Under the pieces are notes generated by a model. It was not told the origin of the DNA, ran no database searches, and saw only the letters and a list, made by a program, of their open reading frames with translations. A DNA stretch of 33,979 nt, from positions 1 through 33,979 of the forward strand of contig JFNH01000001.1 in NCBI GenBank assembly GCA_000634415.1, written 5' to 3'. Source of the DNA: Prochlorococcus sp. scB245a_519A13 (GTDB lineage: Bacteria > Cyanobacteriota > Cyanobacteriia > PCC-6307 > Cyanobiaceae). The position numbers and the translations under genes were made by a program. Of the stretch, positions 5,913-15,508 are shown piece after piece (the stretch's first letter is position 1; the number at the start of each line of letters is the position of its first letter).

Positions 5913-7016
5913 ATGGTGTTATTAAATAAAATCAAAAATAAACTTCGTATTAATTACAGAAAAAAAAGATGGCCTGGACTAATAGAAGCTTATAAACAAT
6001 ATCTCCCGGTTACAAATAAAACTCCTATTATTTCGCTCAATGAAGGAAATACACCGCTAATTCTAAGCGAGTCAATTAGCAACTTAATTGGAAATGGAAC
6101 AAAAGTTTTTTTAAAATATGATGGCCTTAATCCAACAGGATCTTTTAAAGATCGTGGTATGACTATGGCAATTAGCAAAGCAAAAGAAGAAGGTCGTGAA
6201 GCTGTAATTTGTGCAAGTACTGGAAACACCTCTGCTGCTGCTGCTGCATATGCTTCGAGAGGAGGATTAAAACCTTATGTTTTAATCCCAGAAGGATTTG
6301 TTGCACAAGGAAAGCTTGCGCAAGCTTTAATGTATGGTGCTGAGATAATATCTATTAATGGAAACTTTGATAAAGCTCTTGAAATTGTTAGAGATTTATC
6401 CTCAGAAAATCCTATAGAACTTGTTAATTCTGTTAATCAATATCGAATACAAGGACAAAAGACGGCAGCTTTTGAGATAGTTGATGACTTAGGTCATGCT
6501 CCTGATTGGCTTTGTATTCCAATGGGTAATGCAGGAAACATAACTGCTTATTGGATGGGATTTAAAGAATATTCAAAAATAAAAAGAAATTTGAAATTAC
6601 CAATAATGATGGGTTTTCAATCCGAAGGCTCTGCTCCATTAGTAAAAAATATAATAGTTAAGGATCCAGAAACAATTGCAACTGCAATAAGAATTGGAAA
6701 TCCTGTAAATAGAGAAAAAGCAAAAAAAGTAAAGAAGGAGAGCAAAGGAGACTTTCAGTCAGTTACAGATGAAGAAATAATCAATGCTTATAAAATTCTT
6801 GCCAAAGAGGGAGTATTTTGTGAACCTGCTAGTGCAGCATCAGTTGCTGGACTTATTAAAAATAAAAATAGAATTCAAAAAGAATCTACTATTGTTTGTG
6901 TTCTTACAGGAAATGGATTAAAAGATCCTGATTGCGCCATAAAAAACAATGATGCTGTTTTCAGAAAAAATATTGAACCATCATTAAAAAATATAACTAA
7001 AATCTTAGGATATTAA
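5913..7016 (+). CDS. thrC: Threonine synthase
   Basis: A PLP enzyme converting O-phospho-homoserine to threonine, the last step of the pathway. The 367 residues are of the shorter plant/archaea-like ThrC class. NEGNTPLI at about 43-50 is the N-terminal motif. [13 protein letters not shown] carries the PLP Lys (K79), followed by [15 protein letters not shown], which binds phosphate. [10 protein letters not shown] and [11 protein letters not shown] also match the fold-type II family; [10 protein letters not shown] is a strong threonine synthase signature. It is the last plus-strand gene before the putative origin and ends 337 bp upstream of dnaN. It is probably cotranscribed with the two genes before it, judging by gaps of 0 and 6 bp. 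Confidence 0.96.
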
Positions 7017-7036: not shown

Positions 7037-7045
7037 TGTGGAAAT
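7037..7045 (-). promoter_or_regulatory. DnaA-box-like 9-mer
   Basis: Read on the minus strand this is ATTTCCACA, one mismatch from the TTTTCCACA form common in cyanobacteria and two from TTATCCACA. It lies 21 bp after the thrC stop, at the far edge of the putative origin. Confidence 0.45.
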
Positions 7046-7155
7046 TCAATAAAAACAAACATCATTTGTTGAAAAATACATAATAAGTAATCGTATTTGT
7101 TGAATAAATTAAAATTTTTCGGATAAAGATAAAACTACTCAACAAAAAATAAAAT

Positions 7156-7164
7156 TTTTTCACA
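7156..7164 (+). promoter_or_regulatory. DnaA-box-like 9-mer
   Basis: TTTTTCACA fits the loose consensus TTWTNCACA fully. Because the region is T-rich, one such match could arise by chance; its place in the thrC-dnaN gap is the main support. Confidence 0.4.
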
Positions 7165-7209
7165 TGTTTTTGTGTATGTAAACTGTTTTGACAAGGTATT
7201 TAATTTAAG

Positions 7210-7227
7210 TATTCCACAATTCCCACA
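7210..7227 (+). promoter_or_regulatory. Two abutting DnaA-box-like 9-mers next to the CTA repeat
   Basis: TATTCCACA (7210-7218; one mismatch from TTTTCCACA) is followed with no gap by ATTCCCACA (7219-7227; two mismatches). Both point toward the CTA repeat, which starts 4 bp later. Two tandem boxes leading into a DnaA-trio is the layout described for the basal unwinding system of Bacillus subtilis-type origins. The second box alone would be weak; the pairing and position give it weight. Confidence 0.55.
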
Positions 7228-7231
7228 AGAA

Positions 7232-7243
7232 CTACTACTACTA
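7232..7243 (+). promoter_or_regulatory. Candidate DnaA-trio: four CTA repeats
   Basis: The plus strand reads CTACTACTACTA, so the complementary strand reads 3'-GAT four times, which is the preferred DnaA-trio unit. It lies 4 bp downstream of two tandem DnaA-like boxes and directly before an A+T run. Known role of the element: the DnaA filament grips single strands through it during melting. That it does so here is inference. Confidence 0.55.
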
Positions 7244-7352
7244 AATTTTTAATTTTATTATTTAATCTTTATTAGAAAAGAGCAAAAAATTAATTTATTG
7301 AATTTAATTTACGAAAAAAGTATATTGTATTTGTAAAAAGTTCCAAATTCCG

Positions 7353-8510
7353 ATGGAAATTATTTGTAATCAAAATGAATTAAATAATTCTATACAACTA
7401 GTTAGTAAAGCAGTTGCTTCTAGACCAACGCATCCAATTCTTGCAAATATACTTTTAACGGCTGATGAAGGAACTAATAAAATTAGCATGACAGGATTTG
7501 ACCTTAATTTAGGAATTCAAACCTCTTTTGATGGAACTGTTAAAAATAGTGGAGCTATTACTATACCTTCAAAACTTTTATCCGAAATCGTAAACAAACT
7601 ACCAAATGAAACTCCTGTTTCTCTGGAAGTAGATGAGAATTCAGATAATATCCTAATAAAAAGTGATAGAGGTTCTTTTAATCTAAAAGGGATCCCTTCT
7701 GATGAATATCCTAATTTACCATTTGTTGAAAGCGGTACTTCTTTGAATATTGATCCTAGTTCTTTTTTAAAGGCTTTAAAATCAACTATTTTTGCTAGTA
7801 GTAATGATGATTCAAAGCAACTACTCACAGGTGTCAATTTTACCTTCAAATCAAATTATTTAGAGTCTGCTTCTACAGATGGACATAGATTGGCTGTTGC
7901 TTTAATTGGTAATGAAGAACATATTGAAAATAAAGAAAACTTATCTTCTAATATTGATGACTTATCGGTAACTATCCCAACTAGATCATTAAGAGAAATT
8001 GAAAAACTAGTATCTTTGAAAAGCTCAGAAAATTCAATTAAGCTTTTCTATGACAAAGGTCAAGTAGTATTTATATCTTCTAATCAAATAATTACTACAA
8101 GAACTTTAGAAGGTACTTATCCTAATTATTCACAATTAATTCCTGATTCTTTTTCTAAAATTCTAAATTTTAATACAAAAAAATTAATTGATGCATTAGA
8201 AAGAATTGCTGTTTTAGCTGATCAGCAAAGTAGTGTTGTAAAGATTAAATTAGATGATACAGATTTAGCTTCAATCAGCGCAGATGCTCAAGATATTGGA
8301 AATGCAAATGAATCCATACCTGTTTCTTATTCTGGAGAAAATTTTGATATTGCATTTAACGTTAGATATCTGTTAGAAGGTTTAAAAGTTATTGCTTCTG
8401 AAAATGTGCTTTTAAAGTGTAATATTGCAACTACTCCTGCTGTTTTTGTACCAGAAGATAATTTTAATTCTTTTACTTATTTAGTTATGCCTGTGCAGGT
8501 TCGTTCTTAA
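7353..8510 (+). CDS. dnaN: DNA polymerase III beta sliding clamp
   Basis: The processivity clamp that encircles DNA and holds Pol III and many repair proteins. At 385 residues it spans all three clamp domains. Residues 1-40 carry VSKAVASRPTHPILANILL, typical of cyanobacterial DnaN; TDGHRLAVA near 175 and TRTLEGTYPNY near 250 are the classic clamp motifs, and the C terminus ends in LVMPVQVRS, matching the usual MPMRL-type tail at the peptide-binding pocket. The start ATG follows 336 bp of non-coding DNA. The next gene begins one base after its stop, so dnaN probably heads an operon with the PRC-barrel gene and purL. dnaA itself is not adjacent in this window. Confidence 0.97.
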   Translation: MEIICNQNELNNSIQLVSKAVASRPTHPILANILLTADEGTNKISMTGFDLNLGIQTSFDGTVKNSGAITIPSKLLSEIVNKLPNETPVSLEVDENSDNILIKSDRGSFNLKGIPSDEYPNLPFVESGTSLNIDPSSFLKALKSTIFASSNDDSKQLLTGVNFTFKSNYLESASTDGHRLAVALIGNEEHIENKENLSSNIDDLSVTIPTRSLREIEKLVSLKSSENSIKLFYDKGQVVFISSNQIITTRTLEGTYPNYSQLIPDSFSKILNFNTKKLIDALERIAVLADQQSSVVKIKLDDTDLASISADAQDIGNANESIPVSYSGENFDIAFNVRYLLEGLKVIASENVLLKCNIATTPAVFVPEDNFNSFTYLVMPVQVRS

Positions 8511-11609: not shown

Positions 11610-13070
11610 ATGTGCGGAATAGTTGGAATCGTTTCCTCAAATGATGTAAATCAACAAATTTACGATAGTCTTTTGCTTTTGCAGCATAGAGGTCAAGACT
11701 CAACAGGTATAGCAACAATGGAAAATACTGTTTTTCATATACATAAGGTTAAAGGTCAGGTTAATACTGCTTATAGGACTAGAGATATGAGGAATTTAAT
11801 TGGCAAAATTGGATTGGGTCATGTTAGGTATGCAACAAAGGGATCAGCAGAAAGTGTAGAAGAAGCACAGCCTTTTTATGTTAATGCTCCTTATGGAATT
11901 GTTTTGATACATAATGGAAATTTGACTAATACCAGAGATTTAGAAAAACAGTTATTTAATGTCGATAAGCGGCATACAAATTCTTCAAGTGATACTGAAA
12001 TGTTGTTAAATGTATTTGCGACAGAATTACAGGAACAAATTCATAATCAAGAATTAGAGCCTGATATTATTTTTAATGCGGTCGAATCTTTACATAAAAG
12101 AATTCAGGGATCATATGCTTCAATTGCATTGATTTCAGGACATGGTTTACTAGCATTTAGAGATCCTTTTGGTATTAGGCCTTTAGTCATAGGGAAAAGA
12201 TTTTCATTAACTACAAAAAAAGAAGAATGGATGGTTGCAAGTGAATCTTTAGTCCTCGAGAATAATGATTATGAAGTAGTGAGAGATGTAGATCCAGGAG
12301 AAGCTGTTTTTATAAATCTTAATGGGGAGTTTTTCTCTAAGCAATGTTCTGAAAATCCAATGTTATTCCCCTGTGCTTTTGAATATGTTTACTTAGCTAG
12401 GCCAGATTCAATTATGAATGGAATTTCAGTTTATAAAGCCCGTTTAAAGATGGGAGATTATTTAGCAGAAACAATAAAAGAAACAATCAATTCTGGAGAT
12501 ATTGATGTAGTTATGCCTATTCCTGATTCCTCTCGACCCGCGGCAATGCAAGTTGCAAGAGAGTTAGGGATAGAATATAGGGAAGGTTTTTTCAAAAATA
12601 GATATGTTGGCAGAACATTCATAATGCCTGGTCAGCAGAAACGTAAGAAATCTGTAAGGCAAAAATTAAATGCTATGAGTGCGGAGTTTAAAAATAAAAA
12701 TGTATTAATTGTTGATGATTCAATAGTAAGAGGTACTACTTCAAAAGAAATTGTCCAGATGGCTAAAGATGCAGGAGCAAATAAAGTTTTTTTTACATCA
12801 GCAGCTCCCCCTGTTCGTTATCCTCATGTTTATGGAATTAATATGCCTAATAGAGATGAATTAATAGCTCATAATAGGACAATAAGTGAAATCGCAGATA
12901 AACTTGAAATTGATAATCTTGTTTATCAAAGTGTTGAAAGTTTGCGTAAATCTATAATTGGTGATTCTCCTATTAAAGGTTTAGAGATGAGTTGTTTTAC
13001 TGGTGATTATGTAACTGGCACAGTAAATCAAGAATACTTAAATTGGGTTGAAAATGAATATAAATCTTAG
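11610..13070 (+). CDS. purF: Amidophosphoribosyltransferase
   Basis: First committed enzyme of purine synthesis: PRPP plus glutamine to phosphoribosylamine. The 486 residues begin MCGIVGIV, so Cys2 is exposed after Met removal and no propeptide is present. [10 protein letters not shown] and GHVRYAT mark the Ntn glutaminase domain; [13 protein letters not shown] at 365-377 is the PRPP loop. In Bacillus-type PurF an Fe-S cluster is held by four Cys. Here only C255 (PCAFEYVY) and C462 (SCFTGDY) align by eye; the other two places have H406 (PHVYG) and E459 (GLEMS). It thus looks cluster-free, as in E. coli. The stop overlaps the convergent gyrA-like gene by 4 bp. Confidence 0.97.
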
Positions 13071-15508
13071 TCGAGAAAGTTTTCAAGTCGGAAACAATTT
13101 TCAAGGTATTCATCATTATCTAATTTTAAAAAATCAATTAAAAAGGTTGATTTGTTGGATTTGAAATTTAATTTATTTAGGTCTAATCTTGCCGATTTAT
13201 TTCTATTAGTTTCAATATCAAGGTAATGGTTACTTGCCATTATTTTTAGGAAGTAATCGTTTTTAAGTTGTGTTTTTTCATTCAAATATCCTAAGCTGTA
13301 TTCATTTGAGCAGTAAATTTCATTAGTATTTATGCAAAAGATTTTTCCATGTTTAGATATTAAAAAAATATTTTCTCCATCATGAAATGTACAACAAGAA
13401 ACGATTTTTTCAGATGGTAAAAGTTTTGCAATTATTAACCCTTGGGATTGTTTAGAAGTTGGCGTTAAAAATTTATTTGATAAATTAAATTTAAAAATTC
13501 TTCCTATCGAGGTTAATACTATTAAATCTTTGTTTTCATTAGAAATAAAAGAATCAATTGTTTTTAAATCATTTTTTAATTTTGTAATAGTGAAAGATCT
13601 ATTGCTTTTAATCATATCTTCATCAAATAAAACTTTTTTAAATCTTCCATCTGAATTTAATATGCATAAATAATTTCTAGTTTCTTTTTTAATTGAATGA
13701 AAATTTATTATTTCACTAGGATGAATATTTCCAAGTATTTTATTATCTAATTTATAATCTTTATTAATACTTGATTCCCAATCAATGTTAAATACTTTTC
13801 CCGTATTTGTGATTCCAATTAATTTTATATTTTTGTCAATATTACATATAAATTTTTGAATATTTTTATTATCTATAATTTTATTTACAACCTCAAATGA
13901 TTTCTTGTAATTACTTAAAATCATCCTTTTTAAATAAAGTCTATTATCTATGTATAATTTTGTTTTTTTATTTATAAAGTCTTCTAATATTTGATTATTA
14001 AGCGTTTCTAATTCTTCATTTTGATTTATATTTTTTATTATTTTTGTTTTACGTATAATATTGTATTTTTTCTTTAATATTAATAATTCCTCTATGAGTA
14101 ATTTAAGTAATAATTCTCTTTCGTTCAATAATGTTTGAAAATAATTCTTTTTTTCTTCTAAATTTTTTATATCGTTATAAATTTGCTTTTTCTCTAGATT
14201 TGTTAATTTTTTTAGTGGCATATCTAAAACTGAATTTGCTTGTTTTTCACTCATGAAAAAATTTTCTACTAATTTTGATTTAGCTTGCGAAGAATTTTCT
14301 GATTCTTCAATAATTGCTATTACTTTTTTTATGTTTTTTGTAGCTTTAGCTAAACCTTCTGATATTTCTAGTTTATCAAGGGTATTTTTTAGAAAATAAA
14401 AAGTTCTTTTTCTAATTGTTTCTTCTCTAAATTCAAGAAAATAGTTGAGATATTTTTTCAGATTTAGTTTTACAGGCTTGCCTTTAATCAAAGCTAAGAA
14501 TATTGCGCCAAAGTTTGTTTGGAGAGTTGTTTTTTTATATAAATTAGAAATAACAAGTTCAGAATTAGAATCTTTTTTTAGTTCTATTACAATCCTCATT
14601 CCATCTCTGTCGCTCTCATCTCTAATATCAGAAATTCCAATAATCTTGCCTGAATTAACAAGTTCTGCGAGTTTTTCAATCCAACCTGCTTTATTAATTT
14701 GGTAAGGAAGTTCAGTAATGATTATTGCATTCTTCTTATGTTTTCCTTTGCCCAAATTTACCTCTTCCGTATTTACAACTCCTCTTATAGTTATAGATCC
14801 TTTTCCAGTTTGATAAAGTTCTTCTATTGCACGACTATAAATTAATTCTCCGCCTGTAGGAAAATCAGGTCCTTTGATAATGTTAGAAAGTTTTTTATCG
14901 CTAATATCTTTATTTTTAACTAAGGCAACTAAACCATCTACAATTTCTCCTAGATTGTGAGGCGGAATATTTGTTGCCATGCCAACAGCAATACCTGATG
15001 AGCCGTTCAATAATAAAAATGGAAGTTGGGCTGGAAGTACATCTGGTTCTTTCTGAGAACCGTCAAAATTATTTGAAAAGCTTACTGTTTCTGATGCAAT
15101 TTCTTCAAGAAATCCTTTATGAGCTATAGGAGCTAATCTAGTCTCAGTATATCTCATTGCTGCTGGCGGATCATTATCCACAGATCCAAAATTCCCATGG
15201 CCGTCAAGAGTAGGATATTTAGTTGAGAAATTTTGCACTAACTTCACTAATGCATCATAAACTGCTTGATCTCCATGAGGATGGTATTTTCCAAGTACAT
15301 CTCCAACAACTCTTGCACATTTCCTAAATGGTTTATCAGGAGTTAAACCTAATTCGTGCATCGCAAATATGATTCTTCTTTGTACAGGCTTTAGACCATC
15401 TCTTGCATCAGGCAACGCACGTCCAACTATGACGCTCATCGCATACTCCAAATAAGAACGTTGCATTTCTTCTTGAAGCGAGATGGAAGTGAATTTTTTC
15501 TTATCCAT
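13067..15508 (-). CDS. Type IIA topoisomerase A subunit, GyrA/ParC-like paralogue
   Basis: The DNA-breaking subunit of a gyrase or topoisomerase IV-like enzyme. 813 residues. The N-terminal half is well conserved: [12 protein letters not shown] at 35-46, the HPHGD loop at 76-80 and RYTETRLA with catalytic Tyr120. The C-terminal half is much less conserved, Lys/Asn/Ile-rich, with beta-pinwheel-like repeats (for example [31 protein letters not shown]), but no QRRGGKG-type GyrA box, so DNA wrapping and negative supercoiling are doubtful. The residue after HPHGD, a main quinolone-resistance site (Ser in E. coli GyrA/ParC), is Gln81. My recollection is that these genomes hold another, true gyrA elsewhere. 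No gyrB/parE partner is in this window. Confidence 0.9.

Follow-up and report, generated by a model that had tools for sequence, protein, structure and literature searches.

The closest described system to the module considered here is the basal unwinding system (BUS) at the oriC of Bacillus subtilis, in which DnaA boxes 6 and 7 are combined with a run of DnaA-trios (PMC8287927, PMC10721633). In each trio, B. subtilis DnaA captures the G and the A and leaves the third base free, and Asn187 is contacted by the amine of the central base (PMC10721633). Asn196 contacts the uncaptured base. With cytosine in place of adenine, opening proceeded at a similar rate and growth was faster than with guanine or thymine, which makes cytosine the best substitute; 3'-AA-5' was tolerated in one trio but harmful in all six (PMC10721633).

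A cyanobacterial counterpart has also been described. DnaA of Synechococcus elongatus opens its own BUS in vitro, with opening dependent on both the DnaA boxes and the trios (PMC8287927), so that the interest of our module does not lie in a cyanobacterial BUS being new; we liken the two by the published description. Cyanobacterial oriC records in DoriC and Ori-Finder resemble our locus in that the origin adjoins dnaN and carries TTTTCCACA-type boxes (PMC6323995, PMC10225481), and an origin between thrC and dnaN was predicted for 12 Prochlorococcus strains from skew and DnaA boxes (PMC2836286). The BUS as a kind is already known, and the Prochlorococcus origin locus is already predicted (PMC8287927, PMC2836286). 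Because DoriC 10 and Ori-Finder 2022 mark DnaA-trios, their Prochlorococcus entries may already be marked. In contrast to the present analysis, the available text on these resources (PMC6323995, PMC10225481) contains neither base-level conservation nor cytosine-centred trios. The base-level evidence for conservation of the Prochlorococcus module is new here.

The module in the thrC-dnaN gap and its conservation

The window, that is, the whole 33,979-nucleotide stretch of DNA analysed, is one contig of the 222-contig, 67% complete genome of Prochlorococcus sp. scB245a_519A13. Upstream of dnaN, the earlier note had described two abutting 9-mers, a 4-bp spacer, four CTA copies and an A+T run, and re-reading the sequence reproduced this description letter for letter. 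With the end of thrC at 7016 and the dnaN start codon at 7353, the module lies in the thrC-dnaN gap, the features of which are listed below (counts out of 80 refer to the alignment of close relatives described afterwards).

5913..7016, + strand: thrC, left neighbour of the predicted origin (TIGR00260, 320.6 bits; cut-off 167.1)
7037..7045, - strand: DnaA box-like 9-mer R1, ATTTCCACA on the - strand, identical in 67/80
7067..7075, - strand: DnaA box-like 9-mer R2, TTTTCAACA on the - strand, identical in 72/80
7098..7106, - strand: DnaA box-like 9-mer R3, TATTCAACA on the - strand, identical in 61/80
7136..7144, + strand: DnaA box-like 9-mer R4, TACTCAACA, a form found in 5/80; commonest form TATTCAACA, in 59/80
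7156..7164, + strand: DnaA box-like 9-mer R5, TTTTTCACA, a form found in 22/80; TTTTACACA in 43 and TTTTCCACA in 7
7210..7218, + strand: DnaA box R6, upstream member of the tandem, TATTCCACA; commonest form AATTCCACA
7219..7227, + strand: DnaA box R7, downstream member of the tandem, abutting R6, ATTCCCACA; commonest form GTTCCCACA
7228..7231, strand-less: 4-bp spacer AGAA, fixed in length, free in sequence and not G+C-rich here
7232..7243, - strand: four DnaA-trios, 5'-CTA x4 on the + strand, equal to 3'-GAT x4 on the - strand
7244..7275 (end approximate), strand-less: A+T run, predicted DNA unwinding element (scan of AT content and stability)
7298..7326, + strand: probable dnaN promoter, TTGAAT-17 nt-TATATT (consensus scan; strong conservation of the block)
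7353..8510, + strand: dnaN, DNA polymerase III beta subunit, right neighbour of the predicted origin (TIGR00663, 332.3 bits; cut-off 137.65)

We predict with high confidence that this module is the BUS of the Prochlorococcus oriC, with the duplex first opening at about 7232-7275 and the - strand of the trio run as the strand that DnaA would capture. The published BUS finder accepts a box with at most two mismatches and a paired second box with at most four, separated by at most 3 bp (PMC8287927). R6 and R7 differ from the E. coli box TTATCCACA at two and three positions, respectively, with a gap of 0, and from the cyanobacterial box TTTTCCACA (PMC4674748, PMC6323995) at one and two positions, all counted by eye. 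The first trio starts 4 bp from R7 and 13 bp from R6, inside the range of 0-16 bp from the first located box, and, where at least three in-frame trios with a central adenine are looked for, the window has four CTA copies with all four centres conserved in 80/80 rows. Compared by the features given in PMC8287927 and PMC10721633 rather than by its sequence, the B. subtilis BUS shares with our module two co-oriented boxes, a short spacer, a 3'-GAT run, the strand polarity, the A+T-rich side and the same base-capturing DnaA residues. It differs in having six trios and a G+C-rich spacer, whereas the window has four trios and an A-rich spacer; moreover, the boxes in the window are further from the high-affinity consensus, the residue corresponding to N196 is Asp, and dnaA is about 0.5 Mb away in the relative G264.

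The alignment of close relatives was drawn from the best 80 of 196 dnaN loci, 79 of which had an upstream region and, together with the window, made 80 distinct sequences; L039 was left out, having just 43 bp upstream. The 79 relatives comprise 77 Prochlorococcus and two uncultured Synechococcaceae (L033, L067). The succession of box, box, 4 nt and trio run was directly readable in 80/80 sequences, with the first trio base 119-128 bp ahead of the dnaN start codon. R6 was at least 95% conserved at all nine columns (AATTCCACA in 73/80; the window form TATTCCACA in 3/80), and R7 occurred as GTTCCCACA in 53/80, as GTTTCCACA in 10/80 and in the window form ATTCCCACA in 5/80. The sequence of the 4-nt spacer varied among the 80 sequences and its length was constant. 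A perfect run of four CTA was present in 67/80, and the remaining 13 had one change each (11 C to T and 2 C to A on the + strand), in every case at the first base of trio 2, 3 or 4 and never at T or A. Nine of the 12 columns of the CTA run were invariant, compared with 1/106 non-motif A/T columns and 0/22 G/C columns at 7046-7209. The check set out in the earlier note, whether the CTA copies and both boxes are kept amid drifting flanks, came out in its favour, the block being readable in 80/80 of these sequences.

Chance resemblance within very AT-rich DNA deserves consideration, as the gap between thrC and dnaN is very rich in A+T and contains many box-like 9-mers (R1-R7). Against chance, TTCCACANNTYCCACANNNNCTACTA was found once in 1.15 Mb of the window's own genome and its reversed control pattern 0 times, the modules of relatives scored above matched shuffles, and the block was conserved in the 80-row alignment while its flanks drifted. 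On uniqueness, shuffle comparison and conservation together, chance was ruled out; we give it a practically negligible probability.

The tandem boxes were present as the earlier note had claimed but are less isolated than it implied, since five more conserved box-like 9-mers, R1-R5, lie upstream. These are probably accessory boxes. Three conserved 9-mers within 7067-7144 of the window, TTTTCAACA, TATTCAACA and TACTCAACA, have a CAACA core in place of CCACA; judged by their letters, such CAACA-core 9-mers are perhaps low-affinity DnaA boxes of AT-rich Prochlorococcus. On the other side of the module, a block at about 7294-7348 equalled or exceeded the CTA run in conservation, with 12/12 columns from 7316 invariant over 80 rows. 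This block is probably the dnaN promoter and leader. In the promoter consensus scan, sites of the TTGAAT-17-TATATT type were no commoner in the real sequence than in shuffles.

Predicted origin position and the DnaA protein

As the genome of the window is split into 222 contigs, the skew test was run on one relative, the near-complete genome G264 of the same genus, whose main contig does not start at dnaN. Tiles of 20 kb covering about half of the contig were used, and 38 of the 40 were usable, two having been dropped. The cumulative G-C minimum fell in the tile 624,001-644,000, and dnaN is at 642,493; the location of the module in a chromosome origin is thus given by proxy, through the skew of one relative. 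An origin elsewhere, which the earlier note had named as grounds for giving up its reading, was pursued through this GC skew, and the minimum lay in the dnaN tile. An origin beside dnaA, which is at 1,160,677 in G264, about 0.5 Mb from dnaN, was rejected for that genome on the same result. The cumulative skew curve was shallow and noisy, and cumulative ORF-strand bias over the same G264 tiles had no extremum at dnaN. High-light strains have no marked strand asymmetry in codon usage (PMC2836286), and the weak skew signal of G264 agrees with this description. A bi-directional linear gradient has been reported for the metagenomic coverage of Prochlorococcus ecotypes when the fit starts from one fixed terminus, and the available text does not name the origin genes (PMC9589681). 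The earlier note's reading of the locus as a melting site composed of box, trio and unwinding element is therefore supported by both conservation and the GC skew of a relative, and it is still a prediction.

Elsewhere in the window, a GyrA-like protein is encoded at 13067-15508. It scored 748 bits, under two GyrA equivalog cut-offs (877 and 902), and reached 681 bits with a wider model for topoisomerase subunit A, above the cut-off of 654; by these models it may belong to either gyrase or topoisomerase IV.

An intact DnaA is encoded in the window's genome (TIGR00362, 514 bits), and its best match among solved structures was 8btg, a DnaA, over nearly the full length (415 bits). We take 8btg to be the B. 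subtilis BUS complex. Residue positions were assigned by eye, using the alignment to 8btg, and compared in 29 DnaA rows, 14 of them from GC-rich genera, after two of 31 rows (L322, L327) had been dropped for a wrong reading frame. The residues aligned to B. subtilis E183, N187, I190, I193, R202, K222, E223 and E228 were identical in 29/29 rows, whereas the position of N196 was Asp in 27, Gly in 1 and Lys in 1. The DnaA of this genome has the base-capturing residues, identical at 8/9 positions with Asp at N196.

From experiments on B. subtilis and S. elongatus we infer, by analogy, how DnaA binding, oligomer growth, base capture and melting might proceed at this locus. Domain IV of DnaA would bind the co-oriented R6 and R7 as duplex, and the AAA+ domains would assemble rightwards, toward dnaN, along the lower strand. 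A pocket between two subunits of DnaA would receive the 3'-G and the A of each trio, the third base staying outside. Such capture would hold the strands apart, after which melting could spread into the A+T run and the helicase could be loaded.

Family-wide occurrence and trio centres in GC-rich relatives

dnaN was detected in 274/300 genomes of the family (Cyanobiaceae). The family set consisted of 130 upstream regions from 129 genomes (G244 twice) and was non-random, with 30 best-scoring loci and 100 hand-picked ones, the latter chosen to span genera and then GC-rich genomes; it overlaps slightly with the 80-row set, as at least L138 and L142 seem to be the same as L075 and L058. The search always returned the best-scoring site per locus within 260 bp, with a maximum score of 25, and abutting boxes and a 4-nt spacer were built into its model, so that these are not independent results here. 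Module scores were 18-25 over the 130 loci, with 127/130 at 19 or more and a maximum of 18 among 1300 matched block shuffles; the three modules that scored 18 were no better than the best shuffles. When 70 family loci were scored over 700 bp on both strands, 69 lay above every one of 700 shuffles. At the centres of trios 2 and 3 the score allows either T or G, a bias for which a boxes-only search was intended as the control. That search returned the same position as the full model in 125/130 loci, spanning 37 genera, and the five discordant loci were dropped from the trio counts. Modules were called GC-rich when the 700 bp upstream of dnaN, rather than the whole genome, had a GC content of at least 0.45.

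The position of the predicted unwinding element was kept in this wider set. The far side of the trios is A+T-rich in the window, where the least stable 40-mer of the intergenic region begins at 7239 (less stable places exist elsewhere in the window), and 71/76 GC-rich modules agree. A 30-mer scan, covering starts from -300 to +120 of the first trio base and resolving ties to the start nearest the trios, placed the most AT-rich 30-mer of those 71 modules at +9 to +18 from the first trio base; in the other 5/76 it was at 0 (2 modules) or about -100 (3 modules). Mean A+T of the GC-rich modules in the three 10-bp bins from +10 was 0.62, 0.77 and 0.73, compared with 0.26-0.57 in the 30 upstream bins.

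This arrangement bears on an alternative in which the boxes and the CTA run control dnaN transcription, DnaA at R6/R7 repressing or activating the promoter while replication starts elsewhere. DnaA also regulates transcription in other bacteria, the distance from the end of the CTA run to the dnaN start codon is 109 bp, and a site at 7298-7326 resembles a promoter. That site, however, belongs to a distinct conserved block, and the AT stretch between this block and the CTA run is less conserved. In GC-rich relatives the AT-rich stretch keeps its place immediately behind the trios. The skew minimum of the relative at dnaN and a module found in G326 downstream of dnaA, far from dnaN, also argue for a melting site, and a promoter role makes no prediction of which trio bases may change. 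We consider transcriptional control of dnaN a very unlikely account of the module.

Changes within the trios followed a pattern that the BUS reading can accommodate. In the 49 AT-rich modules, the centres of trios 1-3 were always T on the + strand (A on the trio strand), and that of trio 4 was T in 36 and G in 13 (+ strand). The centre of trio 1 was likewise T in 76/76 GC-rich modules (+ strand). Pooling trios 2-4 of these 76 modules (n=228) gave A 100, C 119, T 7 and G 2 on the trio strand, equivalent to T 100, G 119, A 7 and C 2 on the + strand, and the third base was loosely kept (A 196, G 103, T 5; + strand). The scaffold sequence of one GC-rich relative, CTACGACTACGG, serves as an example. 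The rule of three consecutive adenine centres was followed in 18/76 GC-rich homologues and not in the other 58/76, whereas four consecutive A- or C-centred trios were present in 67/76 and three of four in the other 9/76. The available portions of PMC8287927, PMC6323995, PMC10225481 and PMC10721633 describe no natural cytosine-centred trio in cyanobacteria. A criterion that admits A or C centres, both bearing an amine, is a possible extension of the trio rule, opened by PMC10721633.

Plain mutation pressure was considered as the source of the A-to-C change and rejected, as neither box nor upstream T columns explain G 119, A 7 and C 2. The box T columns of the same 76 modules changed to C 22, A 16 and G 2 times (+ strand; partly fixed by a score that wants T), and T-major upstream columns of eight GC-rich genera had C 37, G 19 and A 13 as minor bases. 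Counted once per genus, trio and base, the trio centres gave G 33, A 2 and C 2 (including trio 4 of AT-rich genera), and G against C differed from the upstream control with p 4e-9, cells being treated as independent though not fully so. No control columns in a CTA context were available among the upstream columns, and a context-specific mutation bias may lie behind the change. In GC-rich modules a negative association was found between trios 2 and 3 (Fisher p 7e-5); as these sequences share ancestry, no claim is built on it.

A further possibility is that the origin is here and the CTA run is kept as a duplex DnaA contact or a helicase-loader site, with opening by the A+T run alone. Trio reading by purified DnaA has been demonstrated in only a few species, and the 119/228 centres of trios 2-4 that are C on the trio strand in GC-rich relatives would suit such a role. 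On the other hand, the 4-nt spacing is fixed in 80/80 sequences, tolerated changes have a 3-nt periodicity, first-base variation in AT-rich modules and second-base A-to-C changes in GC-rich ones fit the pocket described in PMC10721633, and the pocket residues of DnaA are unchanged. We therefore regard this possibility as improbable and favour the trios as the bases read by DnaA.

Read from the sequences, the natural changes match base capture in B. subtilis, with the first base changing mostly from G to A in Prochlorococcus (11/13; G to T in 2), the centre changing from A to C in GC-rich relatives, and the third base loosely kept in the latter. We think it likely that the DnaA-trio code in nature is wider than 3'-GAT and reads 3'-G(A or C)N. 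If so, the boxes, the 4-bp spacer and trio 1 would have been kept as picocyanobacterial genomes turned GC-rich or AT-rich, and the centres of trios 2-4 would have moved between A and C, whose amine the conserved DnaA asparagine could hold, with guanine almost never taken up. A BUS finder that insists on three adenine-centred trios would then reject 58/76 GC-rich modules, and the family would amount to a natural mutagenesis series for base capture. Natural evolution may here serve as a test of the B. subtilis base-capture model, as the tolerated changes fall where the structure expects them. PMC10721633 asks if a broader set of trios can be read by homologues of DnaA; this would be a partial answer, and the question becomes directly testable with modules that are homologous and only a few bases apart. 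The analysis yields a base-exact prediction of the melting site for a photosynthetic organism that ranks among the most abundant.

Occurrence in the rest of the phylum

The pattern TTTTCCACANTTTCCACANNNNCTACTACTA, allowing up to three mismatches, gave 13 matches in 136 phylum genomes, one per genome, compared with 0 for the control; in these genomes, sites away from dnaN were sought with this pattern only. Compared by hand with the gene positions, 12 of the 13 matches were upstream of dnaN at a distance of no more than 500 bp, whereas the remaining one was about 480 bp downstream of dnaA. The draw included six family members, two of which (G034, G056) had no TTTTCCACANTTTCCACANNNNCTACTACTA match at up to three mismatches. 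This last match belongs to G326, a genome of another family, in which the module is at C1:1859-1889, about 480 bp downstream of dnaA, and dnaN is at 3,080,768 on the same contig. As the module is beside dnaA and far from dnaN, it goes with dnaA in this genome and not with dnaN, and its sequence position suggests that the origin of G326 is located with dnaA.

Fifty loci outside the family were scored, comprising 30 best-scoring and 20 hand-picked ones from 133 dnaN-bearing genomes (family members included). The identical geometry, with scores of 23-25, was found in 7/50 (f2, f3, f5, f9, f10, f15, f16), one of them being L170 (f10), which has the same geometry as the module of the window, and three more loci (f9, f18, f27) had CTACTACTA adjoining the boxes. 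No such module was found within 750 bp upstream of dnaN in 40/50 outside-family loci, and the arrangement is thus not universal in the phylum. A dnaA match was absent from 8/136 genomes, six of which had a dnaN match. To see if the module is lost along with dnaA, five of these six loci were set beside the dnaA-bearing ones: within 750 bp upstream of dnaN, the module was found at 0/5 dnaA-less loci compared with 10/45 dnaA-bearing outside-family loci, near forms included.

A second, diverged DnaN-like gene was also observed in a long open frame in G354, G362, G364, G368, G393, G415 and G417. These second matches, at 1e-60 to 1e-82, came from large genomes of f7 and f11, and G415 had three matches in total.
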